DNA of 64,000 nt from Candidatus Oscillochloris fontis (GCF_004138135.1 NZ_RYFD01000013.1:1-64000), one strand, 5' to 3'. Counted from the stretch's first letter, positions 29,919 through 57,141 are shown. Made by a program: numbers and translations. Notes: a model not told the origin generated them from the sequence alone.

Positions 29919-30209
29919 ATGCCGTATGTAATTATTATACAACCTGATGCAGAAGAAGATATTACCTATTACCGTGTTCGTGAACAACGAATCATTATTG
30001 ACGGTATTAAAACGTACCTTCAAATACAACCCGATGTTGAAAGTAATCGTAAAAAACCACTTCGTTCAAATAAAATTGCACCATGGGAATTACGTATAGA
30101 TATTTACAGAGTTTTTTATCGTTTCGATGAAGCGATCATTTTTATTATGGCTGTTGGTCATAAAATTCATAACATACTCTATATTCGCGGCAAGGAGGTG
30201 CCATTATGA
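29919..30209 (+). CDS. RelE/ParE-superfamily toxin
   Basis: 96 residues, small basic beta-rich protein: VIIIQPDAEEDITYYRV, PWELRIDIYRVFYRF and VGHKIHNILYIRG. The ELRI..YRVFYR and VGHK blocks are characteristic of RelE-type mRNA interferases. Gene order is toxin first, and its TGA overlaps the antitoxin ATG (ATGA at 30206-30209). AT-rich codons contrast with neighbours and suggest horizontal acquisition. Confidence 0.85.
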   Translation: MPYVIIIQPDAEEDITYYRVREQRIIIDGIKTYLQIQPDVESNRKKPLRSNKIAPWELRIDIYRVFYRFDEAIIFIMAVGHKIHNILYIRGKEVPL

Positions 30210-30475
30210 TAACTCTTGATCTCCGTCAACGATCTATTTCTCTCGATGAATTATTACGCACTGTTGATCAAGACACTGTTGTAATTGTTCGATCCGATGG
30301 AAAACGCTTTGTTCTTGAGTCAGAAGATGCGTTTGAGCAAGAAGTAGCGATGCTTGCTCAGAGTGAGACATTTATGGCGTTTTTGGACGAGCGTTCAACC
30401 CATAAAGGTGGTCGAACACTTGAGGATTTTGAGCGTATGCTCAATGATGCGGAGCTTGAAGCGGGGGAAACCTAA
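30206..30475 (+). CDS. Antitoxin partner of the RelE-type toxin
   Basis: 89 residues. Phd/YefM-like or AbrB-like N-terminus (LRQRSISLDELLRTVDQ, then VVIVRSDGKRFVLESED) and an acidic helical C-terminus (LEDFERMLNDAELEAGE) expected to bind the toxin. Exact antitoxin family uncertain. The ATGA overlap with the toxin indicates coupled translation; its 3' end overlaps the convergent kinase gene by 4 bp. Confidence 0.8.
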   Translation: MITLDLRQRSISLDELLRTVDQDTVVIVRSDGKRFVLESEDAFEQEVAMLAQSETFMAFLDERSTHKGGRTLEDFERMLNDAELEAGET

Positions 30476-32313
30476 ATCCTCCACACCCGGATCGTTCCGT
30501 CTAAACTCGTGGAGGCCAGAGTCTGGCGGTCGGGGCTGTAGGCGACCCCCGTGACTGCCGCGCTGTGCCCCTCTAGCGTATGCAGCAGCCGCCCGTCGGC
30601 CACGCTCCACAGGCGCACGGTGGTGTCGGCGCTGCCGCTGGCGACGGTGCGCCCATCCGGGCTGTAGGCCACACTGGTGATCGGGCCGCTGTGGCCCTCG
30701 AAGATCAGTCGCAGGCTGCTGTCCCCTAGGTTCCAGAGCCGAATCGTGCTGTCCATTGTCCCGCCACTGACGATCAGGTCGCCATCGGGGCTGAAGGCGA
30801 CCGCCGCACCGAGCAGCGTTGCTTCAATGTAGGCAAAGACCGCCTTGCCGCGTAGTTGTTCGCGTAGCGTCTGCCGCAAGCGCCCGTCACCGATGCGCCA
30901 GATGCGCACGCTGCTGTCGAGCGTGATCACGCTGGCGATGACTTCGCCATCTGGACTGAAGGCTAACCCATTGACGTTCCCCATCTGCCCGCGAATCGCT
31001 CGGACGAGGCTGTTGTCGCTCGTCTGCCAGAGGCGCACGGTCTTGTCGGCTCCGCCACTCGCCAGCAGGTTGCTGTCGGGGCTGAAGGCGACGCTCGCTA
31101 CTGCTCCGCTGTGCGCGTCGAGGCATGCGATCTCGGCGCGGTCGCTCACGCTCCATACACGGGCGGTCTTGTCGCTCCCCCCGCTGGCCAGCAGACGCCC
31201 GTCCGGGCTGAAGGCTACCGCCAAAACACGCTCGCTGTGGCCTGTGAGTTCGGCAATCTGGCTGCCGTCGCTGATGTTCCATAGCCGCACGCTGCCGTCT
31301 ATCCCGCCGCTGATCAGCCGGTCTCCCTCTGGGCTGAAGGCGAGGGCGAGGCTGCCGCCTTTGTGGGCCTCTATCGCGCCCTGGGTGCGCACGCTTACCG
31401 CTACTTGTCCCATGCCCATGAGTCCGCGCTTCAGTTCGCCTGCGTCGGCGAAGCGCTGTTCTTGGGTCAGCGCGACGGCCTGAGTCACCGCGTCGGCGAC
31501 GTGGTGCGAGAGGCTGGAGTTGCGTTTGCGTGGGCGTAATAGTGGGTCGGAGCTGCTCGATGCGCGCTCGGCTGAGGTCAGCGGCGCTTCGCCGGTGAGC
31601 AGGTGGTAGAGTGTGGCCCCGACGCTGTAGATGTCGCTGCGTGGGTCGGTGTGCTGGTCGCTGCTGCCCCACTGTTCCAGTGGTGCGTAGGTGGGGGTCA
31701 GGCCGCGCCGTGAGTTCTCGGTGGCATCCAAGCCCTGCTTGAGCAACCCGAAGTCCACCAGTTTGATCAGCCCTTCGGGGGTTAGGCGGATATTGGCCGG
31801 TTTGATGTCGCGGTGGATGATCGGCGGGTGCTGGGAGTGGAGGTAGCTCAAGACATCGCACAACTGAAGTGCAAAGCCGAGTACCTGCGATTCGAGCAGC
31901 GGGCCGTGCTGTTTTTCTAACACATCCTGAAGGCTCTGCCCCGGCACCAACTCCATCACCAGATAGCCGTTGCCATCCTCCTCGAACATCTCGAAGTAGC
32001 GCGGCAAATTGGGGTGCCTCAGCGCACTCAGGATCGCGAACTCGCCCTGGAAACTGCGGATACTCCCCGGATCAAAGGTCTCCTTGATCGCCACCATCCG
32101 CCCCGGTTCGGCTCCGTCTTCGGCCTGATAGACCGCGCCAAAGCCGCCATGGCCGAGAGTCCGCACGATCTGGTAGCGCCCCACCTGCGCTTCCGGGTCT
32201 TGCAGGCGTAGCGCGTTGCGCAGGTTGCCCCCACAGCGCCGACAAAACTGCGCCGTGTTGCGGTTCTCGGTGGCACAACGGCGTCCAGTTCGGCTGTCCT
32301 GACAGATGAGCAT
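30472..32313 (-). CDS. Ser/Thr protein kinase with zinc ribbon and C-terminal WD40 propeller
   Basis: 613 residues. The N-terminus has a CxnC...CRRCG zinc-ribbon-like segment (residues 4-28). Kinase domain about 45-310: LGHGGFGAVYQAED, VAIKE, HRDIKPAN and LVDFGLLK. From about 340 to 613 are seven WD40 repeats with VAFSPDG(R/D)LLASGG(S/A)DKT VR(L/V)W-type units, which form a propeller for protein binding. No transmembrane helix, so it is cytoplasmic. Such eukaryote-like kinases are numerous in Chloroflexota. Upstream of the start is a MITE-like palindrome. Confidence 0.93.
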   Translation of the reverse strand: MLICQDSRTGRRCATENRNTAQFCRRCGGNLRNALRLQDPEAQVGRYQIVRTLGHGGFGAVYQAEDGAEPGRMVAIKETFDPGSIRSFQGEFAILSALRHPNLPRYFEMFEEDGNGYLVMELVPGQSLQDVLEKQHGPLLESQVLGFALQLCDVLSYLHSQHPPIIHRDIKPANIRLTPEGLIKLVDFGLLKQGLDATENSRRGLTPTYAPLEQWGSSDQHTDPRSDIYSVGATLYHLLTGEAPLTSAERASSSSDPLLRPRKRNSSLSHHVADAVTQAVALTQEQRFADAGELKRGLMGMGQVAVSVRTQGAIEAHKGGSLALAFSPEGDRLISGGIDGSVRLWNISDGSQIAELTGHSERVLAVAFSPDGRLLASGGSDKTARVWSVSDRAEIACLDAHSGAVASVAFSPDSNLLASGGADKTVRLWQTSDNSLVRAIRGQMGNVNGLAFSPDGEVIASVITLDSSVRIWRIGDGRLRQTLREQLRGKAVFAYIEATLLGAAVAFSPDGDLIVSGGTMDSTIRLWNLGDSSLRLIFEGHSGPITSVAYSPDGRTVASGSADTTVRLWSVADGRLLHTLEGHSAAVTGVAYSPDRQTLASTSLDGTIRVWRI

Positions 32314-32461: not shown

Positions 32462-33253
32462 CTACACCAACTCAGCAGCGATCTGGCGCAGCGCCCGCGC
32501 AATCGGTGCGTTCGGGGTGCGCCGCACGAAGAGCCCGCCACTTCCTATTGTTTGCAGCGACTCGCTGTGGTGGAGCACCGCCACTACCGGTTGGCTGAAG
32601 ACCGACGCGACCCGCAGCGCTACTTCACCGGCATCAAAATCAACCGGTACCTCGTTCACGATCAGGCGAATGTCGGGCGCTCCCAGCCGATGGGCAAGGT
32701 CAATCAGTACCCCGGTGCCATAGTAATCCTGATGATCGGGGCGTAGCAGTAATAGAACGTGATCGGCGATTGCAATGGTGAGCAACGTCTCTTCGCTCAG
32801 CCCGGCGGCAGTATCAACCAAGACCATATCGAGGTGCAGATCTTCAGCGAGAGCAGCAAGCCCCTCGCTCAGCGTTTCAGCACGATAGACCCCGCGCAGC
32901 GTTTCGAGGATCTTTTCGGTTTCGCCACTTGCAGGCACTAAAACCACCTTCCCCGCCGGAGGCGATGCGATGCGGTGGGTGACATCGGTGGCCACCATGC
33001 GTAACTCACAGCGTCCGGCGAGGTAGTCGTTGATGGTGAGGCGGTAGTCAAGATCATCAATACCGAAGAAGAGATGCAGACTCGGCGACTGCAAATTGGC
33101 ATCAATCAATCCCACCCGCAGCCCGCCATCAGCCAACAGTACGGCCAGGTTCGCCGCGATGGAGGATTTCCCGGTGCCCCGGCGGAATGAATGGATGACG
33201 GTAATGGGTGTCATAGGTGTGATTTTTTTGATGCTTGTGATGCTCACAGGCAT
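32462..33253 (-). CDS. MinD/ParA-like P-loop ATPase (last gene of the cluster)
   Basis: 263 residues from ATG 33253, whose A is shared with the TGA of the upstream gene; ATG 33214 would give the length of its paralogue. The P-loop is HSFRRGTGKSS, where the signature first Lys of the deviant Walker A (KGGxGKT) is Arg. Switch motifs VGLIDANLQSPSL and DMVLVDTAAGLSEETL are present. Its paralogue at 39520-40275 begins the same operon. ParA/MinD ATPases position cargo or act as switches; the cargo here is unknown. Confidence 0.85.
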   Translation of the reverse strand: MPVSITSIKKITPMTPITVIHSFRRGTGKSSIAANLAVLLADGGLRVGLIDANLQSPSLHLFFGIDDLDYRLTINDYLAGRCELRMVATDVTHRIASPPAGKVVLVPASGETEKILETLRGVYRAETLSEGLAALAEDLHLDMVLVDTAAGLSEETLLTIAIADHVLLLLRPDHQDYYGTGVLIDLAHRLGAPDIRLIVNEVPVDFDAGEVALRVASVFSQPVVAVLHHSESLQTIGSGGLFVRRTPNAPIARALRQIAAELV

Positions 33254-33573
33254 CAATCAAACAAATTCTTCAACCGATCTGGTGTGCGACCTCGTGTACG
33301 GACACGAGCCATACGGATGTTGTAGCTAATCTGCCCCTGGTTTTCTTCGGCAACAAGCAACCCATGAGCAACGAATGTGTCGGCAAGCTGTTGCGCCTCA
33401 TCAAGTTCGCAGCCCACTTCACTGCTGAGTTCCGCAAGGCTTACACTACCACCATGACGGGTCAACCAGGTCAGAATGCGGCGCAGACCAGCAGGGAGGC
33501 TGAGCAGATCAGAGGGGGTTACGCCTCCCTCACCAGTATATCCGGCTAGTTCGTCAATCAGTTGTTGATACAT
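33253..33573 (-). CDS. Small winged-helix protein
   Basis: 106 residues. The middle LRRILTWLTRHGGSVSLAEL, then VGCELDEAQQLADTFVAHGL, reads as a winged helix, ending in a basic tail (RMARVRTRGRTPDRLKNLFD). It sits 8 bp after the transporter-HEAT gene and overlaps the MinD-like gene. It might be a transcription regulator or a protein-interaction partner of the ATPase. Confidence 0.7.
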   Translation of the reverse strand: MYQQLIDELAGYTGEGGVTPSDLLSLPAGLRRILTWLTRHGGSVSLAELSSEVGCELDEAQQLADTFVAHGLLVAEENQGQISYNIRMARVRTRGRTPDRLKNLFD

Positions 33574-33581
33574 GGTCTGCC

Positions 33582-36500
33582 TTACCCTTCGCCCATCTTA
33601 TCAAACAGATCAACAATCTGGCGCGGGCGGGCGCGGGTCTTCTCGGCAATCGTACTGCTCGCGTCGCGTAATCGTCGGCTGAGGAACTTGATGATCGTCA
33701 GCGCAAGGTCGGGATATTGATTGATCAGATCAATCAGCACCTCGCGCCGAATGGCGAGCAGGTAGCAGGCATCAATCGCGATGGCGCTGGTGGGATGCGC
33801 GGGCGCATCAAAGACGGCCAATTCGCCAAACGGGCTACGCGCTTCAAGCGTGGCGATGCGGATCACATTGCCGCGTGCCCGCGTCTCTTCGATCCCGACC
33901 CGCCCATTCACAATCACAAAGAGCCGGTCGGCGGGATCGCCTGCGGTGAAGATCGGCGCACCTTGGGGGTATTCCAACTCTTCGGCGGCGCTGGCCAGGA
34001 TCTGGAGTTGGCCGGGGGCCATGTCAGCAAAAACGGGGACGGCACGTAGGAAGATGGCCTTCTCAACCACAGAGAGCACGGCAATACCTCCTTGTTCGGT
34101 CGGCGGTAGGCTCGGTTGGTGTTCGGTTTGTGCGGCGCGGGCCAAGTTGTGCCGCCACTCCGAACCATGTCCGACCATCTCCCAGGCTTGGTGATGTGTG
34201 ATTGCAGATTGCGGCCAACGCTGGGCCGCCAGGGCCAGTACTCGCTCAGGTAGGCGGTCAGGACGCATGATACCAGCAGTGAGCCGCGCTTGCCAAGGTG
34301 AACGGGCATTCTCTAAGGCTTCGCTGGCTTGTGCGCGGCGCTCACGCTCCTCGGCGCCTAAGCCTTGCCAGATCGAACGTGCCGCGTCGTCGCCGTCGCT
34401 GGCGGCTAATAGGCGTCGTAGCCGTTCCAGCAGGTCTTGCTCCTCTTCGTTGATGTCGTCCAAGAGGAGTGTCCCGAAGGCTCCTTCCAGTTTGCCCAGT
34501 GCTGGTCGGATCTGGATGATGGTGGCAAGCCGGGCTAGGAGGCTCTGCTCAAACTCGATCAGTTCTGCGCTGGGCCGCCCTGGGTTGAGCCGCGCCAGCG
34601 TGACGAGCGCCGCTTCGCGTTGATCGAGGCTGCCCGCTTGCTTCAGACATGCGCTCAGGGCCGCCCGCGCAGGTATGCCGATCTGGAAGAGTGTACTACT
34701 CGCACATGCCCGTACACTGGGGTTGTGGTCGCCTAAAACGCCCACTAGCATCTCGATCTGGCTGGGGCCAGCCTGCCCCAGCGCGAGCGTCACGGCGCGC
34801 CGTACCGGTACCGTGGGGTCGTTGAGGCTCTGGCGGAGTGCCGCGACTAACGCGCTCTGGCTGGCGAGGTTGCTCAGATGGGCGGCGGCTTCGGCGGCGG
34901 CCAAGCGCACAATCGGTGAAGAGTCGTGGAGGCCGGTGATCAACATCTCCGGCGCGTGCGTGCCGATCACGCTCATCACGGTGGCGCGCATCTCGGCTTC
35001 AGGGTAGGCGACTAGCGCAACGAGTTGCGCCCGTGCCTCATCGGGGTACGCACGCAGCAAGAGCCGCGCCGCCGCGAGCTGTACACGCGCATCAGGGTCG
35101 TTCAGCATGCTGCGGAAGAGCGGCGCAGCTAACGCCCGCACCCCACACAGCGCGTCCAGGGTTGCCCGTCGCACCGCTGGCTCTTCGGCGCGGATCAGGC
35201 GCGGGGCCAGCGCGATCAGCGGTTCACCGGCAATCCCACTCTCGCCCAACAGATCGAGCATCGCCACCTGGGTTGGGGCTGGGCTATGTGCGATCCGGGT
35301 GGTGAGGGCGCGTTCTGCTGCATTCCGATCCAGTTCGATCAGAATACGCCCAAGGAAGATCTGATCCTCTAAGCTCTCGGTCGCCGCGAGCCGCACCTCT
35401 AACATCTTCACTGTCTCTGGGTCGGCGCTACCAAAGCCTGCGAAGGCCATGCGCTGCGTGATCGGATTCTGCTCCCGCGCCAGCGCGATGGTGGCGTTAC
35501 TATACGCCCAACGTACCCATACGGCGGTCGCGACGGTGCCAAAGGCGATGATCGCGCTCAGCCAGGGGATGATTGGCACGCCCCAACTCACTGTCTGTAA
35601 GCCCAGGATGAGTAGGCTGCCTATGGTTGCCCCTAACGGTACCACCGCCCCGCGTACAATCGCCCGCATGCGCATGCGCAGTTCAGCCGCCAGCGCATTC
35701 ATCAGCAGGTCTTCGGCAGGAATCTGGAGGCTCTGGCGCAGGGTGGTGCGTACCACTTGGCCCGCCATTGCCGCCGCGACACTTCCGGTGACACCGACCC
35801 AAATACTTACCGCCAGCGCAATCGCGGGGTAGATCAGGTTGGTGCGCGAGACCCCGATCAGGCGGATGATCTGCGGTAGCCCAAAGGTCTGGAAGGCCCA
35901 GCCGACCATATTCGCCGCCACCGCAATGATCGCATAGATTGTGCCGAGTTGACGCTCATCGGGGTAGGCCTCCACCATCACCCCACTCGTCTGGTAGGTG
36001 AGCAGCAGCACCAGCGTGACCGCCAGGGCGGCGCTGGTGGTGAGGGCGCGGGCGAGTGGGCTTTGGCGCAGTTGCGGCGCATCGGCGGCACGCGGTTGTT
36101 CGGGGTGGCGCACACGCGCATGCAGGTTGCCGGTGAGCAGCGCTGCGAGGCCCACCAGCAGGAAGGCCAGCCATGCCAGCATTGTCCCGCCACTACCCAC
36201 AGTGTTGAGCAGGAACGGCAGGGTTGCGGCCCCAATGATCGCCCCGATGCGCCCGGCGGCGCTGATCACCGGGAAGCGTACTTTGGCCTCTTGGGCGTCG
36301 TACTGGTCGGAGATATAGTTCCAGATCTGGGCCTGGAGGAGATCGCGGGCGGGGCGGAAGGCGAGGAAGAGTACCAAGGCGGCCCACACCATCCCGGCCT
36401 GGAACGCGCCCCAGATCAGCAGATTGATCGCCACCACCCCCACGATGATCGCTGCCAGCAACACCCCGGAGGGGCGGCGGGCTAGGGTGCGGGTATAGAT

Positions 36501-36653
36501 TGCCGTCGTGCCGACGCCCAACACCGCCGTACCAATCAAGCCCAATGGCAGAGCGGCAACCCCGTAGTGGCTCAGGAAGAGTACCTCACTTAAGGTCTCG
36601 CCCATGAAGAGGCCAGCCGAGAGTGCCAGATTGATCGTGTAGTTGCGGCGCAT
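33582..36653 (-). CDS. Membrane transporter-like protein with HEAT repeats and cyclic-nucleotide-binding-like domain
   Basis: 1023 residues from ATG 36653. The first 410 residues hold about 12 transmembrane helices similar to MFS or NTP/NDP-exchange-type carriers (MRRNYTINLALSAGLFMGET, then FRPARDLLQAQIWNYISDQ). Residues about 440-720 are HEAT repeats (PDARVQLAAARLLLRAYPDE, then IVRLAAAEAAAHLSN). Residues about 875-1000 are a cNMP-binding-like domain (FTAGDPADRLFVIVNGRVGI, then SPFGELAVFDAPAHPTSAI). The phosphate cassette keeps FGEL but has Thr where the phosphate-binding Arg is expected, so ligand binding may differ. Central gene of the cluster. Confidence 0.8.
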   Translation of the reverse strand: MRRNYTINLALSAGLFMGETLSEVLFLSHYGVAALPLGLIGTAVLGVGTTAIYTRTLARRPSGVLLAAIIVGVVAINLLIWGAFQAGMVWAALVLFLAFRPARDLLQAQIWNYISDQYDAQEAKVRFPVISAAGRIGAIIGAATLPFLLNTVGSGGTMLAWLAFLLVGLAALLTGNLHARVRHPEQPRAADAPQLRQSPLARALTTSAALAVTLVLLLTYQTSGVMVEAYPDERQLGTIYAIIAVAANMVGWAFQTFGLPQIIRLIGVSRTNLIYPAIALAVSIWVGVTGSVAAAMAGQVVRTTLRQSLQIPAEDLLMNALAAELRMRMRAIVRGAVVPLGATIGSLLILGLQTVSWGVPIIPWLSAIIAFGTVATAVWVRWAYSNATIALAREQNPITQRMAFAGFGSADPETVKMLEVRLAATESLEDQIFLGRILIELDRNAAERALTTRIAHSPAPTQVAMLDLLGESGIAGEPLIALAPRLIRAEEPAVRRATLDALCGVRALAAPLFRSMLNDPDARVQLAAARLLLRAYPDEARAQLVALVAYPEAEMRATVMSVIGTHAPEMLITGLHDSSPIVRLAAAEAAAHLSNLASQSALVAALRQSLNDPTVPVRRAVTLALGQAGPSQIEMLVGVLGDHNPSVRACASSTLFQIGIPARAALSACLKQAGSLDQREAALVTLARLNPGRPSAELIEFEQSLLARLATIIQIRPALGKLEGAFGTLLLDDINEEEQDLLERLRRLLAASDGDDAARSIWQGLGAEERERRAQASEALENARSPWQARLTAGIMRPDRLPERVLALAAQRWPQSAITHHQAWEMVGHGSEWRHNLARAAQTEHQPSLPPTEQGGIAVLSVVEKAIFLRAVPVFADMAPGQLQILASAAEELEYPQGAPIFTAGDPADRLFVIVNGRVGIEETRARGNVIRIATLEARSPFGELAVFDAPAHPTSAIAIDACYLLAIRREVLIDLINQYPDLALTIIKFLSRRLRDASSTIAEKTRARPRQIVDLFDKMGEG

Positions 36654-36672
36654 AGTGGGGGCTACCCTTATC

Positions 36673-37851
36673 CTATTCCCCGGCCACCAGACGGGCAATA
36701 TCGGCCTCAGACACGCTGCGCTGGCGCCCGGTTAGCTCCTTGAGCGCATGAAAGACCCGTCGCAGTTCGCCAGCATCCAGGTGAATGCCCCGGTTGGCGA
36801 GGGCCAACGCCAGCGACTCCTGGCTACTCATCTTGCCGATGACGATGGTGATCCGTTCGGCCCCCAGAAACTCCGGCGTGATGATCTGGAAGGTGCGCCG
36901 GTCGCGCTGCATCCAATCCACCTGGGTGCCGGTTTCGCGCAGCAAGACCGAAGCGCCTACGACTGGTTTGTTGGCGTGCGGGGCGATGCCAGAATAGCTG
37001 GCGACTAAGCGGCTGAGCGGCAGGAGCGCGGTACTGTCGGCCAGTAACTCCAACCCCAAGGCATCGCGGCGTAGCAACAGGTTGGCCACCACCTCCTCGG
37101 TCGGCGGCATCCCGGCGCGCTCACCCAGCCCGTTCACCGCCGTGGCCACCCCGCGTGCCCCGGCGCGCAACGCCGCGATACTATTCGTTGTACCATTGCC
37201 TAGGTCGTGGTGGGCGTGGAAACAGATCCCGGCGTCGGGAGCACCGGCCACCAATTGGCGTACCAGATCGCTCACCTCATCGGGGAGCATGCGCCCAACC
37301 GTATCGCAGACCACGATCATCTCCGCGCCCGCCTCGGTCAGGCGCTGACATGCCTCGATCAGCAGGTCGGTTTCGGGGGTTTGTGAGGCATCCGCCAGGG
37401 CCACATCAATCCCGGCGCGATCCCCGACCAAATCGCGCCCGAAGTGGACTAACTCAACCGCCCGCTCCAACGCTTCGCGCTGGCTCATCCCCATGCGGCT
37501 CTCCAACATCAGCCGCGAGACCGGGAACCAGAACGAGACCCGTGGCATTTCGGCATCGGCGACGGCCTGGTAGCAGAGTTGGAAATCCTCGCGGGTAGCG
37601 CGGCCGGCACATTCAACCTGCGCCCCGGTGACATGCTGGGCTACAGCACGCACCGCCTCAAATTCAGCCGGACTGATCGGTGGGTAGCCGGAATTGATGA
37701 TACAACCGGGTAGTGCCGCCGCGATCTGGTGCGCAATCGCCACCTTATCATCACGCAAAAAGATGACCCCCGCCGTCTGTTCGCCATCGCGCAACGTCTC
37801 CTCATTGAGCGTTACTCGGTCGGTTGGTAAGCTGAAACGCGAGTTGCTCAT
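36673..37851 (-). CDS. HMGL-like acyltransferase (homocitrate/2-isopropylmalate synthase family)
   Basis: 392 residues. TIM-barrel of the DRE-TIM superfamily: LNEETLRDGEQTAGV with the catalytic Arg/Asp, HAHHDLGNGTTNSIAALRAG with metal-binding His pair, and VNGLGERAGMPPTEEVV. The architecture matches NifV/homocitrate synthase more than LeuA, because the C-terminal regulatory domain of LeuA is absent. It would condense acetyl-CoA with a 2-oxoacid. There is no nif gene in view. It overlaps the Cache-HAMP gene by 4 bp and is followed 19 bp later by the transporter-HEAT gene, which is an odd setting for a biosynthetic enzyme. Confidence 0.85.
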   Translation of the reverse strand: MSNSRFSLPTDRVTLNEETLRDGEQTAGVIFLRDDKVAIAHQIAAALPGCIINSGYPPISPAEFEAVRAVAQHVTGAQVECAGRATREDFQLCYQAVADAEMPRVSFWFPVSRLMLESRMGMSQREALERAVELVHFGRDLVGDRAGIDVALADASQTPETDLLIEACQRLTEAGAEMIVVCDTVGRMLPDEVSDLVRQLVAGAPDAGICFHAHHDLGNGTTNSIAALRAGARGVATAVNGLGERAGMPPTEEVVANLLLRRDALGLELLADSTALLPLSRLVASYSGIAPHANKPVVGASVLLRETGTQVDWMQRDRRTFQIITPEFLGAERITIVIGKMSSQESLALALANRGIHLDAGELRRVFHALKELTGRQRSVSEADIARLVAGE

Positions 37852-39494
37852 GATTCTTCACTACTACGCCGATCTTGGTGGCGTCGGCGCATCTGCCCCG
37901 CGCTGGCGCGCAAACTCTGGAAGTAGTCGGTTTCGGTGATCGACTCGACCTGTTGGCGTTTCTTCTGATCATCAATCTGAATGTTCAGTGCCGCGATCTG
38001 CTGCTTGAGCGAGTGTTCGCGCTTGATGACCTGCTCGGCCATCAAACGGAAGACCGCCGCTAGATCGCTGACCTCATCGCGTAGACGGCGTTGCTGGAGC
38101 TCGTTGAGGATCTCCTCGGCCATCTCACCCCGTTCGAGGGCTTGCGCCGCTTCACCTAAGCGTTGCACCGGCGCACTAATCGAACGGCTCATCACGATGG
38201 CGACGATCACCACTACTACCGCCGTGGCGATGATGACGCCGATCATCTGGATCTCTAGGCTCCGGCGCTGGGTTGCGATACTCGTCGTCACCTTGTCAGC
38301 CGCCATATGGAATTCAGCCATCTCGGCCCCAACCGCCAACCCACCAAATACCCCATCTTCCGCATAGACTCCATGCGCAAAGCGGATGGGTGCATAGGTG
38401 GTTGCCTTCTTGGCATTCGACTGGTTCACCGTAATGACAAAGCCATCTTCACCCTGGAGCACCTTCTCATACATGATCGGCAGATTGGGATCAGCCCATG
38501 CCCCATACTGGAGGTTCATCGGATGCCGACCGCGCTCCTCTTTACTCATCTCCTCTAGCACCGGGCTCACCAGTTGGCCGGTCGGGTCGAGACCGCGCAA
38601 GACCCAGAAACGCGGGTGGGCAATCTCCCAGCCCTCATTGTCGAACATGTAGGCATAATTGCCACTCGCATAATCGGGGAAGACGGTAAAATTCTTGTTT
38701 GAGGTGGGCAGAATGTGCAGCGCAAAGCCCATCACATGGCGATAATCGAGCGAGAGCACAACCAAACCATCAAAGGCTCCCGTCTTGGTATAGATCGGAG
38801 CGGCAAAGCGGATGATCGCCTCATACTTTTTACCCTCCACCGCCGCCAACGGATCAGCGGCATCGCCCAACTGTTCCGCTTGGCTGACATACCAGGTGGT
38901 GACGTGCGAGACATAGATCTCGCCGGGTGCGAGGGCTTTCGTTGCGGCGAAGTAGTCTTCAGAGAGGTAGGTCGTATTTGCGGGGTCGCTGACATCGCGC
39001 AGTTGATTGGCGGGGAGGGCTTGGCCATCAGCAACCCGCAGGCGTTCGCGGCCATCCGCACCCACATAGGCTATCTCGCGGAAGATCGGCATCATCTCGC
39101 GCATCTCAACCGGAGCCGCGTTCGTCCCGCCCAGATACCAGACTTCAGCCTGACGAGCGGCGAGAAAGGTGGTGAAGCTCGCCGCATCGCGGGGGATCAG
39201 CGTAGCCGTTCGGGTATCCTGTACGCGCTCTTCAAGAAAGCGTGCAATCGCATTGGCGGTTTCGACCGTGCGTAACTGGAGCGAATCGAGCGACTTCTCA
39301 TCGAGCGTTGCCCGTGTCACCTCAGTCGCCTGATCGCCTGCCTCTTGGTAGCCATTGATCGCAAAGAAACTGATCACGCCCAGCGGAGCGAGACCAATCA
39401 GTAGTGCCACCAACAGAAAGCGCCAGACCAGACCAACGCGAACCCCCCGCGATGTGGCTGTAGCAGCCATAACCTCACTCCTCAACATCCGCAC
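37848..39494 (-). CDS. Cache-type sensor with HAMP domain and no catalytic output domain
   Basis: 548 residues from GTG 39494, which has GGAGGGGG upstream; ATG 39488 and ATG 39470 are alternatives. First transmembrane helix VWRFLLVALLIGLAPLGVIS, then a large extracytoplasmic dCache-like region (about 50-400; YLSEDYFAATKALAPGEIYV, FDNEGWEIAHPRFWVL). Second transmembrane helix near 415-435, then HAMP (SRSISAPVQRLGEAAQALER) and a coiled coil (KREHSLKQQIAALNIQIDDQ). It lacks kinase, cyclase or methyl-accepting output, so the signal must pass through a partner, probably from the same operon. Confidence 0.85.
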   Translation of the reverse strand: MRMLRSEVMAATATSRGVRVGLVWRFLLVALLIGLAPLGVISFFAINGYQEAGDQATEVTRATLDEKSLDSLQLRTVETANAIARFLEERVQDTRTATLIPRDAASFTTFLAARQAEVWYLGGTNAAPVEMREMMPIFREIAYVGADGRERLRVADGQALPANQLRDVSDPANTTYLSEDYFAATKALAPGEIYVSHVTTWYVSQAEQLGDAADPLAAVEGKKYEAIIRFAAPIYTKTGAFDGLVVLSLDYRHVMGFALHILPTSNKNFTVFPDYASGNYAYMFDNEGWEIAHPRFWVLRGLDPTGQLVSPVLEEMSKEERGRHPMNLQYGAWADPNLPIMYEKVLQGEDGFVITVNQSNAKKATTYAPIRFAHGVYAEDGVFGGLAVGAEMAEFHMAADKVTTSIATQRRSLEIQMIGVIIATAVVVVIVAIVMSRSISAPVQRLGEAAQALERGEMAEEILNELQQRRLRDEVSDLAAVFRLMAEQVIKREHSLKQQIAALNIQIDDQKKRQQVESITETDYFQSLRASAGQMRRRHQDRRSSEES

Positions 39495-39519
39495 CGTTGC
39501 CCCCTCCGGCAGCGGTAGA

Positions 39520-40275
39520 TTAACCCATCAAGCGTGCCGCCACCTGACGATAGGCGGCAGTTACTGGGTGATCGGGGAAGCGCAGCGCAAAGACGCCCGC
39601 ACTTGCCAGGGCCATGAGTTCGTCCGAATGGGGGATGACAGCGGCAACGGGGCAGTTATAGATCTGCTCCACCCGCTTCCCGACATCGTTCATGTCGTAG
39701 GTCTGAGGTACCTTATTGACCATCAACAACAGATGCGGCACATCAAGCTTGCGTGCTACCTCGACCGTGACCCCAGTGCCCTGGTAGTCCTGCTGGTCGG
39801 GGCGCATAATGATCAGCAGCGCATCGGAGATTGCGATGGAGAGTAGGGTCTCCTCGTTCAGTCCGGGGTGGGTGTCAATCATCAAGACATCGAGATCGAG
39901 CGCCTCAACCAGGCGCTGGAAGCCATCGTTGAGCAAGCCCGGATCATAGCCATCGCGTAGTACGCGCGCGATTTCACCCGCCTTGATACTGGAAGGAATG
40001 AGGAAGATCTTCCCGCTGATGGGTGTTCCAAGCTCGTTGGTGACATCATAGGCCGCATCTTCAATCTCGCACGTCCCCCACAGATAGTCGTTGAGCGAGT
40101 GGGCCATATGGTCTTCATCCAGACCAAAGAGGACGTGAATACCCGGAGACTGAATATCGGTATCAATCACGCCAACACGATAGCCCTGTGCGGCGAGCAG
40201 TGCGGTGATATTAGCGGTAGTGTTGGACTTCCCCGTACCGCCACGGAAGGAGTGGACAGAGATAATCGTCGCCAT
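39520..40275 (-). CDS. MinD/ParA-like P-loop ATPase (first gene of the cluster)
   Basis: 251 residues. The P-loop is VHSFRGGTGKSNTTANITAL, again with Arg for the signature Lys. VGVIDTDIQSPGIHVLFG and DVLMIDTHPGLNEETL give the Walker A' and B regions. MVNKVPQTYDMNDVGKRVEQ resembles membrane-associated MinD types, but no clear amphipathic membrane-targeting helix ends the protein (QVAARLMG). It lies 25 bp upstream of the Cache-HAMP gene. Confidence 0.9.
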   Translation of the reverse strand: MATIISVHSFRGGTGKSNTTANITALLAAQGYRVGVIDTDIQSPGIHVLFGLDEDHMAHSLNDYLWGTCEIEDAAYDVTNELGTPISGKIFLIPSSIKAGEIARVLRDGYDPGLLNDGFQRLVEALDLDVLMIDTHPGLNEETLLSIAISDALLIIMRPDQQDYQGTGVTVEVARKLDVPHLLLMVNKVPQTYDMNDVGKRVEQIYNCPVAAVIPHSDELMALASAGVFALRFPDHPVTAAYRQVAARLMG

Positions 40276-40432
40276 CGGAGGCTCCTAGTGGCTCGTTGTT
40301 TCAATGGTGAAGGGCAGATCAGATCGGAACGATCCGCTATCTGACCGAACGAGGAGATTGATCAGTTTTACCCAAAAACGCTGTGTCTGACAGCATATCA
40401 CATCGTTATTACACGTATTGCTGCGTATGGTG

Positions 40433-40699
40433 TTAGTCCGTAGCAGCCTTGAGTTGTTCAACGAGCGCGATATAGTCGTTTTGCGCCTGTTCTAGAGTTG
40501 TGCCCTTGAGTTTGGCCCAGGCATCATACTTGAGCCGGTTGGTCATGTCGAGAATACCGGGACGGGAGCCACTCACATCGCCCACAGTAGCCTGCTTGTA
40601 GAGGGCATACAGCTTCAGCAACTCGTTATTGTCGGGGCGCTTGGGGAGGTTCTTGGCATCTAGGGCCGCCTGGTCAAACTGAGCGCGCAGGTCACTCAT
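40433..40699 (-). CDS. Acyl-CoA-binding protein (ACBP)
   Basis: 88 residues from ATG 40699, with AAGGAGG 6 nt upstream. The four-helix ACBP fold is clear: FDQAALDAKNLPKRPDNNEL, LKLYALYKQATVGDVSGSRP, and KYDAWAKLKGTTLEQAQNDY. The Tyr/Lys residues that bind the CoA phosphate are conserved. ACBPs are typical of eukaryotes and scattered in bacteria; they carry long-chain acyl-CoA. It lies 157 bp upstream of the first MinD-like gene on the same strand, so it may be a separate unit. Confidence 0.93.
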   Translation of the reverse strand: MSDLRAQFDQAALDAKNLPKRPDNNELLKLYALYKQATVGDVSGSRPGILDMTNRLKYDAWAKLKGTTLEQAQNDYIALVEQLKAATD

Positions 40700-43601: not shown

Positions 43602-43868
43602 ATGGCTTCGACGCAGCAGAATCAGACCCCATGCCGCTGCGGCGGCCTCGCTTCACAACTCAGTGCCTATCTGGATGGAGAACTCCCCGCCGATCTTTGT
43701 CGCGAACTTGAGCTGCATATCGGCGATTGCCCCGATTGCAAGGTGGTGCTGGATACGCTACGTCGCACGGTACAGATCGTGCATGATTTGGCGAGCACCC
43801 CCACCGAAATCAGCCTTCCACCGAGCGTCGAGGCGCGTCTATTATCGCGGTTGGGTGGGTCGGCGTAG
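43602..43868 (+). CDS. Zinc-finger (zf-HC2) anti-sigma factor
   Basis: 88 residues from ATG 43602, preceded by AAGGAGA. The ZAS motif is SQLSAYLDGELPADLCRELE, then HIGDCPDCK (His-x3-Cys-x2-Cys), plus an N-terminal CRCGG. There is no transmembrane helix, so this is a soluble, possibly redox-responsive anti-sigma that holds the ECF factor. The stop codon lies inside a hairpin array. Confidence 0.88.
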   Translation: MASTQQNQTPCRCGGLASQLSAYLDGELPADLCRELELHIGDCPDCKVVLDTLRRTVQIVHDLASTPTEISLPPSVEARLLSRLGGSA

Positions 43869-43972
43869 AGACGCAAGATATTGCGTCTCTATACGAGACG
43901 CAATATTTTGCGTCTCTATACGAGACGTAATATTTTGCGTCTCTATACGAGACGCAAGATATTGCGTCTCTA
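43866..43972. repeat. Array of four tandem hairpins
   Basis: Four units of about 27 bp, each an inverted repeat GAGACGCAA...TTGCGTCTC or a near variant, joined by TATAC. The array begins at the anti-sigma stop and ends 10 bp before the convergent CoA-disulfide reductase stop (43983). It probably ends transcription from both sides. Arms, not spacers, are conserved, so it is not a CRISPR. Confidence 0.85.
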
Positions 43973-43982
43973 CGCCGTCTTC

Positions 43983-45338
43983 CTATTTTTTCGCTAGGTT
44001 CGCCGCAACCAGGATCGGGTCCCACACCGGCGAGAAGGGCGGCGCGTAGGCGAGATCCAACTCGCCCACCTGCTCCACCGTCCACCCTGCATGCAGTGCC
44101 ACCGCGATGATGTCAATCCGCTTCGCGACCCCCTCGCGGCCCACCAACTGCCCACCCAACATCCGCCCGCTGCCCGCCTCGTACACCAACTTGACATGAA
44201 TGTCGGCGTGGCCCGGCATGTAGTGGGCACGCGAGTTGGCCGTCGCACTGACCGTCTTGACCGTGAAGCCCTCGGCTTTAGCACGCGCCTCGGTCAGGCC
44301 GGTGCTGGCGGCGGTGGCCTCGAAGATCTTTACCACCGAGGTGCCGACGATCCCGCCGAAGCGCGCCGCGCCACCGGCGATGTTCTCACCTGCCACCTTG
44401 CCCTGCTTGTTCGCGGTGGTGCCCAGCGGTACCCAGGTCGGTTTGCCGGTGACGAGATTGATCGCCTCGGCCACATCTCCCGCCGACCAGACATTGGGCA
44501 GGTTGGTGCGCTGCTGGTCATCAACTGCGATGGCTCCGGTGGGGCCGATGGTGATCCCCGCCTGCCGGGCGAGGTTGACGTTGGGGCGCACGCCCACCGC
44601 CACGATCACGATCTCGGCGGGGAAGCTGGTTGCTCCGGCGACCACTTCACGCACGCGGTCATCACCGTTGATCGCGCTGACCCCCTGGCTGGTCTGGATC
44701 ACGACCCCCTGACGTTCGAGTTCGGCATGCACATGGCTGGCCATCTCGGCATCGAGGCTGGGGAGCAGTTGCGGCAGTTGCTCAACAATCGTCAGTTCGA
44801 TGTCGTGAACTGCTAGTGCCTCAGCCATTTCGAGGCCAATGTAGCCCCCGCCGATGATCACGCCCCGGCTGGGGCGGTGTTCGCTGATCCAGGCATGGAT
44901 CGCCTTGGCATCTTCAACATTGCGTAGCGCAAAGACCCCCGGCAGATCAATGCCGGGGATGGGCGGGCGGCTGGGTGAGCCACCTGCTGCAATGAGGAGC
45001 TTGTCATAATGCTCTGTGATGATCGTATCCGTCGCTAGGTTGCGTACCTCCAGTGTTTGGGCTGCCGTATCAATCGCCAAGACCTCGTGGCGTACTAATG
45101 CGGTAATCCCCTGCTTGGCAAACTGGGCTGGGGTTCGCACCACCACATCCTCAATCTGGGCAATCTCGCCCTTGATCGCGTAGGGCAAGCCACACGCCCC
45201 ATAGCTCACATAGCCGGAGCGCTCATAGGCGATAATATCGAGGTTGGGGTTACTGCGGCGTGCCTTGGCGGCTGCACTCATCCCGGCTGCGCCACCGCCA
45301 ATGATGATCACGCGCTCGCGTTGCTGAGGGTTGTTCAT
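43983..45338 (-). CDS. CoA-disulfide reductase / NADH oxidase-like flavoprotein
   Basis: 451 residues. FAD site VIIIGGGAAGMSAAAKARRS; single redox Cys49 in SYGACGLPY as in CoA-disulfide reductases and Nox/Npx; NAD(P) site GVIIGGGYIGLEMAEAL; the C-terminal dimerisation part has DIHVKLVYEAGSGRMLGGQL. It would use NAD(P)H to reduce CoA disulfide, persulfide or oxygen; which one is not readable. AAAGGAAA precedes ATG 45338. Last gene of the minus-strand run from GlgE, but separated from it by hairpins. Confidence 0.88.
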   Translation of the reverse strand: MNNPQQRERVIIIGGGAAGMSAAAKARRSNPNLDIIAYERSGYVSYGACGLPYAIKGEIAQIEDVVVRTPAQFAKQGITALVRHEVLAIDTAAQTLEVRNLATDTIITEHYDKLLIAAGGSPSRPPIPGIDLPGVFALRNVEDAKAIHAWISEHRPSRGVIIGGGYIGLEMAEALAVHDIELTIVEQLPQLLPSLDAEMASHVHAELERQGVVIQTSQGVSAINGDDRVREVVAGATSFPAEIVIVAVGVRPNVNLARQAGITIGPTGAIAVDDQQRTNLPNVWSAGDVAEAINLVTGKPTWVPLGTTANKQGKVAGENIAGGAARFGGIVGTSVVKIFEATAASTGLTEARAKAEGFTVKTVSATANSRAHYMPGHADIHVKLVYEAGSGRMLGGQLVGREGVAKRIDIIAVALHAGWTVEQVGELDLAYAPPFSPVWDPILVAANLAKK

Positions 45339-46687: not shown

Positions 46688-49543
46688 CTACACCCGCACC
46701 AACAACCCCACCGGGAAGATCGCTAACAGATCGCGCAGAGCCAGCCCGCCCCCCTCGGCATGGGCGGCAACCTCCACCTGCGCCCCGGTGAAGAGGTTGG
46801 TGTAGCGTGTCCCCTCGGCCACCCCCGGTAGTGGCAACCATGTCTCGCCCCACACCGCACCCACCGGCGCTAACTCCTCACCCCCCACCAAGCGCAGGCT
46901 CAGCCGGGGTACCACACAGAGCAGTTCGCGCCGTTCGAGGCGGCGGCTGAAGGCCACGACATGCTCCGCGTGTGGCCCCGTAGCACCAAGGGCAAGGTAG
47001 CTCCCCGCCGCAAAGAGATCGGTCTGGGTGCGCCGGAAGCCCAAGGTGCGCATGGTCAGGTAGAGCTTGATGCGTCCATCTGCCGCGTTGCTGAGCAGAT
47101 CGCTGGCCAATGCGGCCAGATCGCCGGACGCCTCGCGCTGACGCAGGTCGGCCAGCAGGCGCTGGCGTAACCCGTAATCCACCGGACGGCGGTTATCGGG
47201 GTCAACTAGGCTCAGATCCCAGAGTTCAGTTCCCTGGTAGATGTCGGGTACGCCAGGTGCCGTCAGCTTGATCAGCGTCTGGGCCAGCGAATTGAAGCGC
47301 CCAAAGAAGGCCACTTTGCGGCTGAAGGTACCGATACTCTCGATAAAGGCGCGACTGCGGCGGCCATCCAGAATAGCGGCGACAAAACTCTGCACGGCTG
47401 CATCATACTCCGGGTTGGGGTTGACCCAACTGGTATGCACCTTAGCCTCGCGGGTGGCCTTCTCCATATAGGCCGCAATGCGTTCCTTGAAGGCCGAGGG
47501 TACGCTGGTCACATGCTCGGTATGGGGCCAAGCACCGACAATCGTCTGGTAGAGCAGGTACTCATCATTCCGCGAGGGTAGGGCTTCACCATCCACCACA
47601 GTCTTCTTGGCGGCATTGAGGCGGCTCCAGCGCAACACCAACTGCCGCCACTCGCGGGGCAGTTCCGAGATCACATTGATGCGGGCGCGCACATCCTCAC
47701 TACGCTTCGTATCGTGGGTCGAAGTTGCCAAGAGCGAATCGGGCCAGCGGCGCGCCCGTTCGGCGGCGTGCGCGTGCAGATGGCGCAGGTCGGAGCCGAA
47801 ATGTTCGGGGTGTCCGCCTACCTCGTTAAGCGAGACCAGCCGGTTATAGACATAGAAACTGGTATCCTCAACCCCCTTCGCCATCACCGGGCCACTAATC
47901 TGCTGGAACTTCATCACAAAACGCAGCACACCCGCACGCGCTTCGGGAGCAAAATTGGTCAAGTTGCGTAGCGTCAATGTATCGCCCAAGAAGTCGAAGA
48001 TCGCCCCGGCCGTGCGCGGGTTCCTCCGCTTGGCCTCACGCACGGCTGCATCTATCGCCCGCACATCACGTTCAGTCACCCGCTCTGGCCCGCGAATATA
48101 GGTGCGGTAGATGTCGAGACAGGCCAAGACCTCGCGGATGGTGAAGGTGAGGCTATTGAGCGTAAAGTCGCGGAAGTGGCGATTATGCTCGGTCAGATCG
48201 TCCAGAATGTGGCTGAGCGCATTGATCTCACTCGCCAGCGAGACGAGCATAATCTCCTTCTTTTTGGAGTTGACCAGATTGGCAAACTGAGGCTGTGGGC
48301 CAACCAGATCGGTATAGATCTGATCAAAACTCCGCCGCGTACTCTGATCAACAAAAATCCCATTGACTTCATTCAGGAAATCATAGCCCGTAGTTCCGGC
48401 CACGGCCCAATCATCAGGGAGCGGCTCGCGCAGCGAGAGGATCTTCTCGATCACCATATAGACCGGGCGGCCCAACGTCTGCTCGGCGTGGTGCTGCAAC
48501 TGGTGGAAGTAGCCGGAGGGGTCCCAGAGGCCATCGGGGTGATCAATCCGCAACCCGCTGGCCTGACCGGCAGCCAAGAGTTGGAAGATGCGTTGGTGGG
48601 TTGCCTCCAACACTTCGGGCAACTCGACCCGAATAGCAGCCAGATCGTTAATATCGAAGAAGCGGCGGTAGTTAATCTCCTCGGTCGCAACGCGCCAAAA
48701 GGCCAGACGATAGGGCTGGCGCTCCAACAGCGCATCGAGCAGATCGAACGAAGCCGAATGGCCAGGCGTACCGTTATATGCACTCAAAGTCTCCGCCAGC
48801 GCCTGCTGAAGCGGCACACTCGCCCGGTAGAGGCGGTCAATCCGGCGCTTGATGATCTCCTTCTCGCGGTTACGTTCAGCAATACTCTCCGGGTCAGTCT
48901 CGGTACGGGGCGGCAAATACTTAAGCGCAGTGATAATACTCTGCAACTCCATCACATCGGGATCATCCGCGCCCTGGGTCGCAATCAGGTAATCGAGGCG
49001 ATGCGCGAGGAGATCGCTATAGGTACGTGGATTGATCGGAAACCGATGTTCCCAATAACTCAATACAAAAGAGCCATCGGCATAATGGAGTTGGAGTTCG
49101 CCGCGCTCCAACACCTCCCCATACTGATCGCCCAAGACCGGCAGCAGCACTTTCCCCGCCAATTGGCGCGGCACCGGCTCCCAATCAATATCAAAATAGT
49201 GGGCATAGATCGAACTCGCACCATTCTCTAGCACATCAAACCACCACCCATTACGCACATCACCAATCCCCATGTGGTTGGGCACCACATCCAGGATCAT
49301 GCCCATCGCATGCTCGTGCAAGACGGCGCTCAAGCGCTCAAAGCCCTCCTCACCGCCCAGGTCGGGGTTGAGGCTACTATGATCGGTAATGTCATAGCCG
49401 TGGCTACTCCCACTACGCGGGGTGAGAATCGGTGAGGCATAGAGATCACTCATTCCCAAATCATGCAGGTAGGCAACCAATTTTTCCGCATCAGCGAAGG
49501 TGAATTTAGTATTGAATTGGATACGATAGGTTGCACGGGGCAT
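46688..49543 (-). CDS. treY: Malto-oligosyltrehalose synthase
   Basis: 951 residues. GH13_26 signature: ATYRIQFNTKFTFADAEKLV, YASPILTPRSGSSHGYDITD, ILDVVPNHMGIGD, GLRIDHPDGLWDPSGYFHQL, and near the end LTAPGVPDIYQGTELWDLSL. It converts the reducing end of an alpha-1,4-glucan to a trehalosyl end, which TreZ then cuts. AGAAGGGAA precedes ATG 49543. It lies downstream of treZ, with a MITE-like palindrome between the two. Confidence 0.96.
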   Translation of the reverse strand: MPRATYRIQFNTKFTFADAEKLVAYLHDLGMSDLYASPILTPRSGSSHGYDITDHSSLNPDLGGEEGFERLSAVLHEHAMGMILDVVPNHMGIGDVRNGWWFDVLENGASSIYAHYFDIDWEPVPRQLAGKVLLPVLGDQYGEVLERGELQLHYADGSFVLSYWEHRFPINPRTYSDLLAHRLDYLIATQGADDPDVMELQSIITALKYLPPRTETDPESIAERNREKEIIKRRIDRLYRASVPLQQALAETLSAYNGTPGHSASFDLLDALLERQPYRLAFWRVATEEINYRRFFDINDLAAIRVELPEVLEATHQRIFQLLAAGQASGLRIDHPDGLWDPSGYFHQLQHHAEQTLGRPVYMVIEKILSLREPLPDDWAVAGTTGYDFLNEVNGIFVDQSTRRSFDQIYTDLVGPQPQFANLVNSKKKEIMLVSLASEINALSHILDDLTEHNRHFRDFTLNSLTFTIREVLACLDIYRTYIRGPERVTERDVRAIDAAVREAKRRNPRTAGAIFDFLGDTLTLRNLTNFAPEARAGVLRFVMKFQQISGPVMAKGVEDTSFYVYNRLVSLNEVGGHPEHFGSDLRHLHAHAAERARRWPDSLLATSTHDTKRSEDVRARINVISELPREWRQLVLRWSRLNAAKKTVVDGEALPSRNDEYLLYQTIVGAWPHTEHVTSVPSAFKERIAAYMEKATREAKVHTSWVNPNPEYDAAVQSFVAAILDGRRSRAFIESIGTFSRKVAFFGRFNSLAQTLIKLTAPGVPDIYQGTELWDLSLVDPDNRRPVDYGLRQRLLADLRQREASGDLAALASDLLSNAADGRIKLYLTMRTLGFRRTQTDLFAAGSYLALGATGPHAEHVVAFSRRLERRELLCVVPRLSLRLVGGEELAPVGAVWGETWLPLPGVAEGTRYTNLFTGAQVEVAAHAEGGGLALRDLLAIFPVGLLVRV

Positions 49544-49569
49544 AAGAAATTCCCTTCTTCTAACGCAAA

Positions 49570-49660
49570 CCTTCAGTATTGACGCAAAGGCGCGAAGACG
49601 CAGAGAATATCCTATTCTAAAGACTTTGCGTCTTTGCGTCTTTGCGTTAATACGTGGATG
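49570..49660. repeat. GACGCAAAGGCGC palindrome between treZ and treY
   Basis: Arms TTGACGCAAAGGCGCGAAGA and TTTGCGTCTTTGCGTTAA, followed by GGATGCTAGGAGAACT, the outer motif of this family. Confidence 0.8.
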
Positions 49661-49669
49661 CTAGGAGAA

Positions 49670-51517: not shown

Positions 51518-51541
51518 TGTTGATCCTTTCGTTATATTTTT

Positions 51542-51580
51542 TTGTTGGTGTTTGGCGGCGAAGCCGCCAAACACCAACAA
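51542..51580. repeat. GGCGGC hairpin between glgB and treZ
   Basis: An 18-bp perfect stem, TTGTTGGTGTTTGGCGGC and its complement, around a GAA loop. It ends 8 bp after the glgB stop. A-run rather than U-run follows on the minus strand, so it is not a standard terminator. Confidence 0.75.
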
Positions 51581-51588
51581 CAGGAGTC

Positions 51589-53616: not shown

Positions 53617-53665
53617 AGGATACGATCTCCATATCGTTACTTGAGCTTCCCGGAAGCTCAAGAAC

Positions 53666-56600: not shown

Positions 56601-57037
56601 GTATCGGGCGTATCCGACCAGACATAGAAATCGCGATGGTTACTACCGGGCTTCGCAGTACGAGCACGCTGGAACCAGGCGTGCTGATCGGAGGTGTGGT
56701 TACAGACGAGTTCGGTGATGATCCGCAAGCCGCGCTGATGCGCCTCGCGGATAAGCGTGCGCACATCCTGGATCGTACCATACGCGGGATTGACATCGGT
56801 GTAGTCGGCAATATCGTAGCCGTCGTCACGCAGGGGGGAGGGGTAGAAGGGGAGGAGCCAGATTGCAGTCACACCCAAATCTTGGAGATAATCGAGCTTA
56901 CTGATCAGACCCTTAAAATCGCCAATGCCGTCGCCATCACTATCGCAGAAGGCTCGGATGTGGATCTCATAGATGATCGCATCTTTATACCAGAGCGGAT
57001 CACCGTTGAGGATCTGCGGGGTCTTTCTGCTGGTCAT
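53666..57037 (-). CDS. treS: Trehalose synthase-maltokinase fusion
   Basis: 1123 residues. The N-terminal 550 residues are TreS (GH13_16): [71 protein letters not shown] and [12 protein letters not shown]. The C-terminal part (about 600-1123) is a Pep2/Mak-type maltokinase: [20 protein letters not shown], and [20 protein letters not shown], then [10 protein letters not shown] with phosphotransferase-type catalytic Asp residues. It interconverts trehalose and maltose, then makes maltose-1-phosphate with ATP, feeding GlgE. The fusion channels the two steps. Confidence 0.96.
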
Positions 57038-57089
57038 GCGTTGCTTTCTTGGTAGTCAGGCTGAACATAGCGAAGCGTGCTGCAAATGG

Positions 57090-57134
57090 TATATGTGGAG
57101 TTTTGGCGGCTACGCCGCCAAAACTCCACATATA
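57090..57134. repeat. Perfect 21-bp-stem hairpin between glgE and treS
   Basis: TATATGTGGAGTTTTGGCGGC, read from 57090, and its exact complement flank a 3-nt TAC loop. It ends 7 bp after the glgE stop on the minus strand. The central GGCGGC/GCCGCC is shared with other gene-gap hairpins here. Confidence 0.85.
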
Positions 57135-57141
57135 CATTACC

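Follow-up and report, generated by a model that had tools for sequence, protein, structure and literature searches.

ATPases of the ParC/PpfA type position chemoreceptor arrays. ParA/MinD ATPases in general typically position their cargo via partner peptides, and it is by basic, disordered peptides at their termini that the partners act (PMC10241942). A different group of systems, the HAMP receptors (such as histidine kinases, methyl-accepting proteins and SiaA), is built around a Cache/HAMP transmembrane input. Fusions of a nucleotide transporter-like (NTT) domain, HEAT repeats and a cyclic nucleotide-binding domain were described by Major et al. 2017, along with an unfused NTT clade in Chloroflexi, Deinococcus, Actinobacteria and Cyanobacteria; the sections of that account drawn on here place neither in a MinD or sensor context (PMC5381601).

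The window, that is, the whole stretch of 64,000 nucleotides from Candidatus Oscillochloris fontis that was analysed, contains genes related to all of these within a single run. Our analysis leans towards the window genes being one example of a widespread signalling module, in which sensors with a shared C-terminal tail would act via a MinD-type ATPase, MinD1. The parts themselves are members of known superfamilies. We call the module new because each known kind of signalling tested failed in a defining feature and no description of it was found in the open-access literature searched, which bears out the first-pass annotation of this DNA in its remark that no described system has this content.

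The six-gene run and its two MinD-type proteins

The run consists of six minus-strand genes, from 40275 to 32462, spaced by 25, -4, 19, 8 and -1 bp, as annotated previously; the last spacing, before MinD2, is -1 or -4 depending on whether the MinD2 start is taken at 33253, where it overlaps the preceding stop, or at 33256. Because of this spacing the six genes are likely to form one transcript, although a scan of the run gave promoter and terminator patterns only at chance level. The earlier domain calls (two MinD proteins, HAMP sensor, HMGL-like enzyme, HEAT repeats with a cyclic nucleotide-like domain and an acyl-CoA-binding protein upstream) agree with Pfam, while a winged-helix gene was counted among the six but left undescribed.

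Both MinD proteins fall into the Pfam families AAA_31/ParA/CbiA. MinD1 (39520..40275, minus strand), assigned from Pfam and from its Walker A and switch motifs, has the Walker A sequence HSFRGGTGKS, with arginine at the position of the signature lysine (KGGxxK), and this replacement is invariant in 13 aligned MinD1 sequences. The deviant Walker A and switch motifs are kept (RGGTGKS, DTD, DTHPG), so that MinD1 belongs to the same ATPase superfamily as MinD-MinE, ParA-ParB, McdA-McdB and ParC, whose partners also carry a short charged terminal peptide (PMC10241942). The best PDB match is an archaeal MinD. In contrast to the known ParA/MinD ATPases, however, MinD1 has the arginine just mentioned, is accompanied by a degenerate second MinD and, as read from sequence, lacks a C-terminal membrane-targeting amphipathic extension, since all 13 sequences end at the last helix of the fold. 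Against the cell-division MinD equivalog TIGR01968 the scores are 57.7 and 43.5 bits for a cut-off of 212.9. Since these are far under the cut-off, the signature lysine is replaced and the membrane-targeting end is missing, MinD1 is not a cell-division MinD. Judged by sequence matches the family is widespread: it is present in 21 of 151 Chloroflexota genomes and on cyanobacterial, Deinococcus and Rhizobium plasmids, and in the GTDB genome collection the confirmed stretches of this type number at least 578.

MinD2 (32462..33253/33256, minus strand) is a degenerate MinD-type protein with Walker A FRRGTGKS, in which the aspartate of the second switch has become asparagine (IDAN). MinD2-type proteins have often lost the glycine of Walker A and the aspartate of the second switch, and in three of those aligned the Walker A lysine itself is gone. 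It is plausible that MinD2 is a non-hydrolysing partner of MinD1. The GTDB genus of the source genome also holds an uncultured Oscillochloris bin and Chloroflexales bacterium ZM16-3; in one same-genus genome (G012) a MinD2-like open frame of 155 residues follows MinD1 (L003/L082:1951-2418) and is perhaps a decaying MinD2.

The sensor tail and its pairing with MinD1

The sensor (37848..39494, minus strand, 548 residues) matches Pfam only through its HAMP domain (residues 434-489; 38028..38195, minus strand) and weakly, below the cut-off, through dCache_1, with no recognised two-component or chemotaxis output domain. It has the Cache/HAMP transmembrane input of the HAMP receptors but, unlike them, no kinase, phosphatase, cyclase or chemotaxis-signalling domain, and carries instead a tail of 45 residues (496-540; 37875..38009, minus strand), defined by alignment across diverse sensors. 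The first-pass annotation had described this protein as output-less. That it has no enzymatic output holds, as no catalytic domain is present, but output-less it is not, since its C-terminus is a conserved tail common to many sensors, which had been overlooked. The structural model of the sensor is of low confidence (mean pLDDT 55.9) and was used for helix boundaries only.

The tail was first seen on reading the C-termini encoded in MinD1 loci, where the same 45 residues end proteins with HAMP, GAF and CNB domains. It aligns without gaps in 19 proteins, with the consensus LKQQVxxLxIEIDExRRxxQVxEITxTxFFxxLxxKAxxxRxR. A coiled-coil-like stretch extending the HAMP helix is followed by an acidic break (EITDT) and a basic amphipathic helix (FFxxLxxKAxxxRxR), the final 15 residues being strongly basic (mean net charge +3.9). 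Tails alone matched no Pfam family above cut-off, and the tail profile had no meaningful match in the PDB. The domains found in 58 tail proteins are HAMP (31), cNMP_binding (15), GAF (13), dCache (7) and receiver (4), and CHASE proteins are also among the carriers. The tail therefore represents a common end of different inputs. This sets the locus apart from MinD-MinE, ParA-ParB, McdA-McdB and ParC, as the partners here are sensors of varied inputs sharing one C-terminal tail; the partner peptides of known ParA/MinD ATPases are N-terminal, which counts against the tail acting via MinD1.

The source genome encodes a second tail protein, on contig C34 (L193:7454-10003), which reads as a single chain of a histidine-kinase-like start, a receiver, GAF, the tail and an alpha/beta hydrolase. 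Here the tail precedes the fused hydrolase rather than being C-terminal, which also speaks against our reading. The gene that follows a HAMP-tail sensor in Herpetosiphon encodes a hydrolase of this family (L048:14420-15274). CNB proteins seem to repeat the tail motif at their N-terminus, but these stretches are the ordinary first helix of the CNB domain and were rejected as copies. We also looked for a natural tail-MinD fusion as proof of docking and found none, the MinD1 "extension" in G238 being an open-frame artefact.

The distribution of the tail follows that of MinD1 closely. In Chloroflexota the tail profile matched 21 of 21 MinD1-positive and 1 of 130 MinD1-negative genomes; the corresponding numbers are 3/3 and 1/108 in Deinococcota, and 1/1 and 0/188 in Myxococcota. 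The two matches among the 426 MinD1-negative genomes are a partial one in Chloroflexota (21 residues, E 1e-4) and one in Deinococcota at the edge of a short contig, which also carries an NTT-like gene and ends there. Cyanobacteria were covered through plasmids. Of 72,556 plasmids searched with a Chloroflexota tail, 7 records matched, all of them among the 8 with a MinD1 of at least 54% identity, and the tail was found neither in phages nor in plasmids lacking MinD1. Searching plasmids with the full-length sensor gave matches only from residue 435 onwards, and again only on MinD1-bearing plasmids. Counting against our reading, the tail was not found on the remaining replicon, a Nostoc UHCC 0870 plasmid (H8) that has MinD1, nor with the MinD homologues of Streptomyces plasmids (41% identity), which we treat as a side branch. 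Fisher values for the association of tail and MinD1 are 8e-25 and 2e-5, both ignoring the shared ancestry of the genomes, and the co-occurrence can reflect cluster inheritance together with that ancestry. Some tails are encoded at a distance from MinD1, among them the sole ones of two genomes (G012 and G052), so that being neighbours cannot by itself account for the pairing.

At the other extreme, MinD1 in Rhizobium starts where the tail gene ends, in overlap or near contact, and in G152 the two genes are a few bases apart; these neighbours form a minimal pair. The window's own genome likewise holds a sensor with the 45-residue tail together with MinD1, the combination by which we define the module. 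Since the tail is found on diverse sensors almost only alongside MinD1, the sensor probably talks to MinD1 through its tail. It could be argued instead that the genes are chance neighbours and the tail a generic coiled-coil end of sensors, as its first half does resemble a coiled coil and has a weak match to a coiled-coil peptide. We regard this as extremely improbable, given the absence of the tail from MinD1-negative genomes, apart from the two matches just described, and from plasmids without MinD1, and given a gene order conserved across classes.

Recurring gene set and a possible mechanism

The gene neighbourhood of MinD1 was examined in 79 loci, each extended by at most 10 kb to either side. 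A tail gene is found in 43 of them (21 of 28 among full-length loci), a second MinD in 36, two winged-helix families in 25 and 31, a stand-alone NTT-like protein in 19 and an NTT-HEAT(-CNB) relative in 7. In one locus from Anaerolineae (L095) MinD1, a tail sensor, NTT-HEAT-CNB and MinD2 follow each other in the order and on the strand seen in the window; with at least four genes kept together in a distant genome, this locus and the recurring set bear out the earlier proposal of one system over that of chance neighbours. Another (L129) has MinD1, tail sensor and NTT-HEAT-CNB and then reaches the contig end, and in L091 a Cache sensor ortholog, 46% identical, lies beside MinD1 and MinD2. The recurring set and these three loci point to a core of MinD1, tail sensor, NTT-like protein, winged-helix protein and MinD2.

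The NTT-HEAT-CNB protein (33582..36653, minus strand, 1023 residues) was assigned from Pfam HEAT and cNMP_binding matches, an AlphaFold model and a fold match. The model has a mean pLDDT of 79.5, with a confident 12-helix domain, a HEAT solenoid and a poor CNB part. The membrane domain (residues 1-394; 35472..36653, minus strand) superimposes on Arabidopsis NTT1 (AtNTT1) over 388 residues at 2.2 Å with Z 41.0, about ten Z units above LacY, and so has the NTT fold. It is followed by the HEAT-repeat solenoid (about residues 409-838; 34140..35429, minus strand; Pfam and model) and a cyclic nucleotide-binding-like domain (residues 893-980; 33714..33977, minus strand; Pfam, motif read directly). 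The window protein has the NTT, HEAT, cNBD order of the fusions of PMC5381601 in one chain and a fold match to plant and chlamydial NTT1, and the stand-alone NTT-like relatives in our loci span phyla similar to those of its unfused clade. K527 of AtNTT1, which is required for ATP binding in NTT1 (PMC3306366), is, in contrast, replaced in all 19 aligned sequences, by alanine in the window, and therefore ATP/ADP exchange by the NTT-like domain is doubtful. In the CNB-like domain the phosphate-binding arginine after the FGE motif is histidine in the window (FGELAVFDAPAHPTSA), while it is kept in L086 and L095.

The winged-helix-like protein (33253..33573, minus strand, 106 residues, C-terminal RTPDRLKNLFD) has related small proteins in other loci, which come after MinD1 or MinD2. 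NTT-like proteins end in a basic-then-hydrophobic motif that recurs in similar form at the C-terminus of the two winged-helix families and of the NTT-HEAT-CNB fusions, such as ..RRRSVLDGIEF, ..RPPSDIWKKID, ..GIWSALDEKLK and ..RPRELHKLFDQFD; in the window's NTT-HEAT-CNB protein the motif, defined post hoc, is RPRQIVDLFDKMGE (33585..33638, minus strand). A simple pattern for it is present in 62-90% of these families versus 2% of other proteins in the same loci, where no MinD1 or tail protein carries it. Since the pattern was made from the families counted, it is a lead and not a test.

On this basis we infer a chain of tail-MinD1 binding, ATPase regulation and an effector step, with roles for the second motif and MinD2. 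A change of state in the input domain (Cache-HAMP here; GAF, cyclic nucleotide-binding, receiver or CHASE elsewhere) would let the tail engage MinD1 and shift its nucleotide state, by analogy with basic partner peptides. MinD1, together with MinD2, would then act on effectors bearing the second C-terminal motif, namely the NTT-like HEAT-CNB membrane protein and the small winged-helix proteins. More tentatively, and with somewhat less than even confidence, receptors with Cache, HAMP, GAF, CNB, receiver or CHASE inputs may constitute a separate signal-transduction class, in which a shared tail, a MinD-type dimerising ATPase and NTT-like and winged-helix proteins replace kinases, cyclases and chemotaxis complexes. 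If this is true, output-less receptors gain a partner, a P-loop ATPase switch joins the outputs of bacterial signalling, and "orphan" MinD/ParA ATPases, as in the MinD1-type stretches counted above, become tied to defined sensors. For NTT-like proteins of free-living bacteria, whose role has so far been unassigned, the loci offer a genomic context.

The direction of action could also be the reverse, with the tail as a tag that lets MinD1 place or cluster the sensors, together with the NTT-like protein, within a cell or filament. Such cargo positioning fits nearly as well as signalling from sensor to ATPase: it is the typical role of ParA/MinD proteins, with cargo held via partner peptides (PMC10241942), and tails on many unrelated proteins are what a localisation tag would produce. 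However, nearly all carriers of the tail are signal-input proteins, the end motif of the NTT-like and winged-helix partners is a different one, and MinD1 has no membrane-targeting end; we consider positioning rather unlikely, though it deserves to be taken seriously.

A further output branch is possible on Nostoc and Pseudanabaena plasmids (L033, L036), where genes for Nif11/NHLP peptide maturation and export, along with CNB proteins, adjoin MinD1 and a tail sensor.

Metabolic and stress-related neighbours

The HMGL-like enzyme (36673..37851, minus strand; Pfam HMGL-like and HCS_D2) belongs to the isopropylmalate/homocitrate-synthase superfamily and has no regulatory domain. It scores below every cut-off of the synthase equivalogs (best 273.9 bits versus 532), the source genome encodes other HMGL proteins as well, and even its closest relatives in 150 other Chloroflexota share just 33-40% identity with it. 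None of the 79 MinD1 loci has the gene, and we rejected it as a core component; it appears to be a local passenger or accessory gene, confined to the locus of the source genome. The acyl-CoA-binding protein (ACBP; 40433..40699, minus strand; Pfam ACBP, E 1.3e-27) lies upstream of MinD1, across a gap of 157 bp, and is probably outside its transcript. It directly adjoins MinD1 in six of the 79 loci (L082, L083, L087-L090) and is a conserved MinD1 neighbour in Chloroflexales.

These genes bear on the idea, offered with the first annotation as speculation, of a system for polarity or membrane organisation, tuned via the HMGL-like enzyme by an acetyl-CoA or 2-oxoacid signal. The enzyme gene does sit inside the run, with a 4-bp overlap on one side and a 19-bp gap on the other, and the ACBP is nearby. 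Since HMGL occurs in none of the 79 loci, however, the acetyl-CoA idea lacks support, and with no close relative of the enzyme in 150 genomes and ACBP beside MinD1 in so few loci, we hold such tuning to be very improbable.

A cassette of AGE epimerase, STAS, GlgX, STAS, RsbW and SpoIIE adjoins MinD1 or its homologue in Chloroploca, Thermoflexales, Anaerolineae, Deinococcota and Streptomyces, and partly in Nostoc; in Oscillochloris-like genomes the genes next to MinD1 are those of a STAS protein and an alpha-amylase. Such neighbours suggest that in many hosts the output concerns stress or stored carbohydrate, outside the window operon, and a link of the AGE/GlgX cassette to desiccation is a lead. 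The module could then be an arm of general-stress partner switching, with SpoIIE/RsbW/STAS proteins and genes of carbohydrate metabolism under the control of the sensors and MinD1. While the cassette stands beside MinD1 in several phyla, Pfam finds no STAS, RsbW or SpoIIE in the window operon and many MinD1 loci are without the cassette. We therefore judge it improbable that the module is such an arm, and the cassette looks like one frequent downstream branch rather than the core.

Several other genes lie around the run or near MinD1 elsewhere. Upstream of MinD1 by 6 kb, the minus strand at 46688-59190 reads as a trehalose/alpha-glucan cluster of malto-oligosyltrehalose synthase and trehalohydrolase, glycogen branching enzyme, a trehalose synthase/maltokinase fusion and a GlgE-type maltosyltransferase, and on a Streptomyces plasmid (L035) GlgE- and GlgB-type genes adjoin the MinD homologue. 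A sigma factor and a zinc-finger-like anti-sigma factor, encoded as a pair, are followed at 43663-44050 by short tandem repeats, which give CVSIRDA over and over in translation and look like an intergenic array. Directly downstream of MinD2, after 148 bp and on the same strand, is a Ser/Thr kinase with WD40 repeats (30472-32313), which was not observed to be conserved beside MinD1. An anti-phage defence reading was dropped, as PADLOC gave only generic kinase, CNB and MinD matches. The small two-gene pair at 29919-30475 (plus strand) resembles a RelE-type toxin with its antitoxin. At 125-4843 a protein of 1572 residues reads as NB-ARC, tetratricopeptide repeats and CHAT, and CHAT or NB-ARC genes are also found near MinD1 on Nostoc plasmids (L034, L211).
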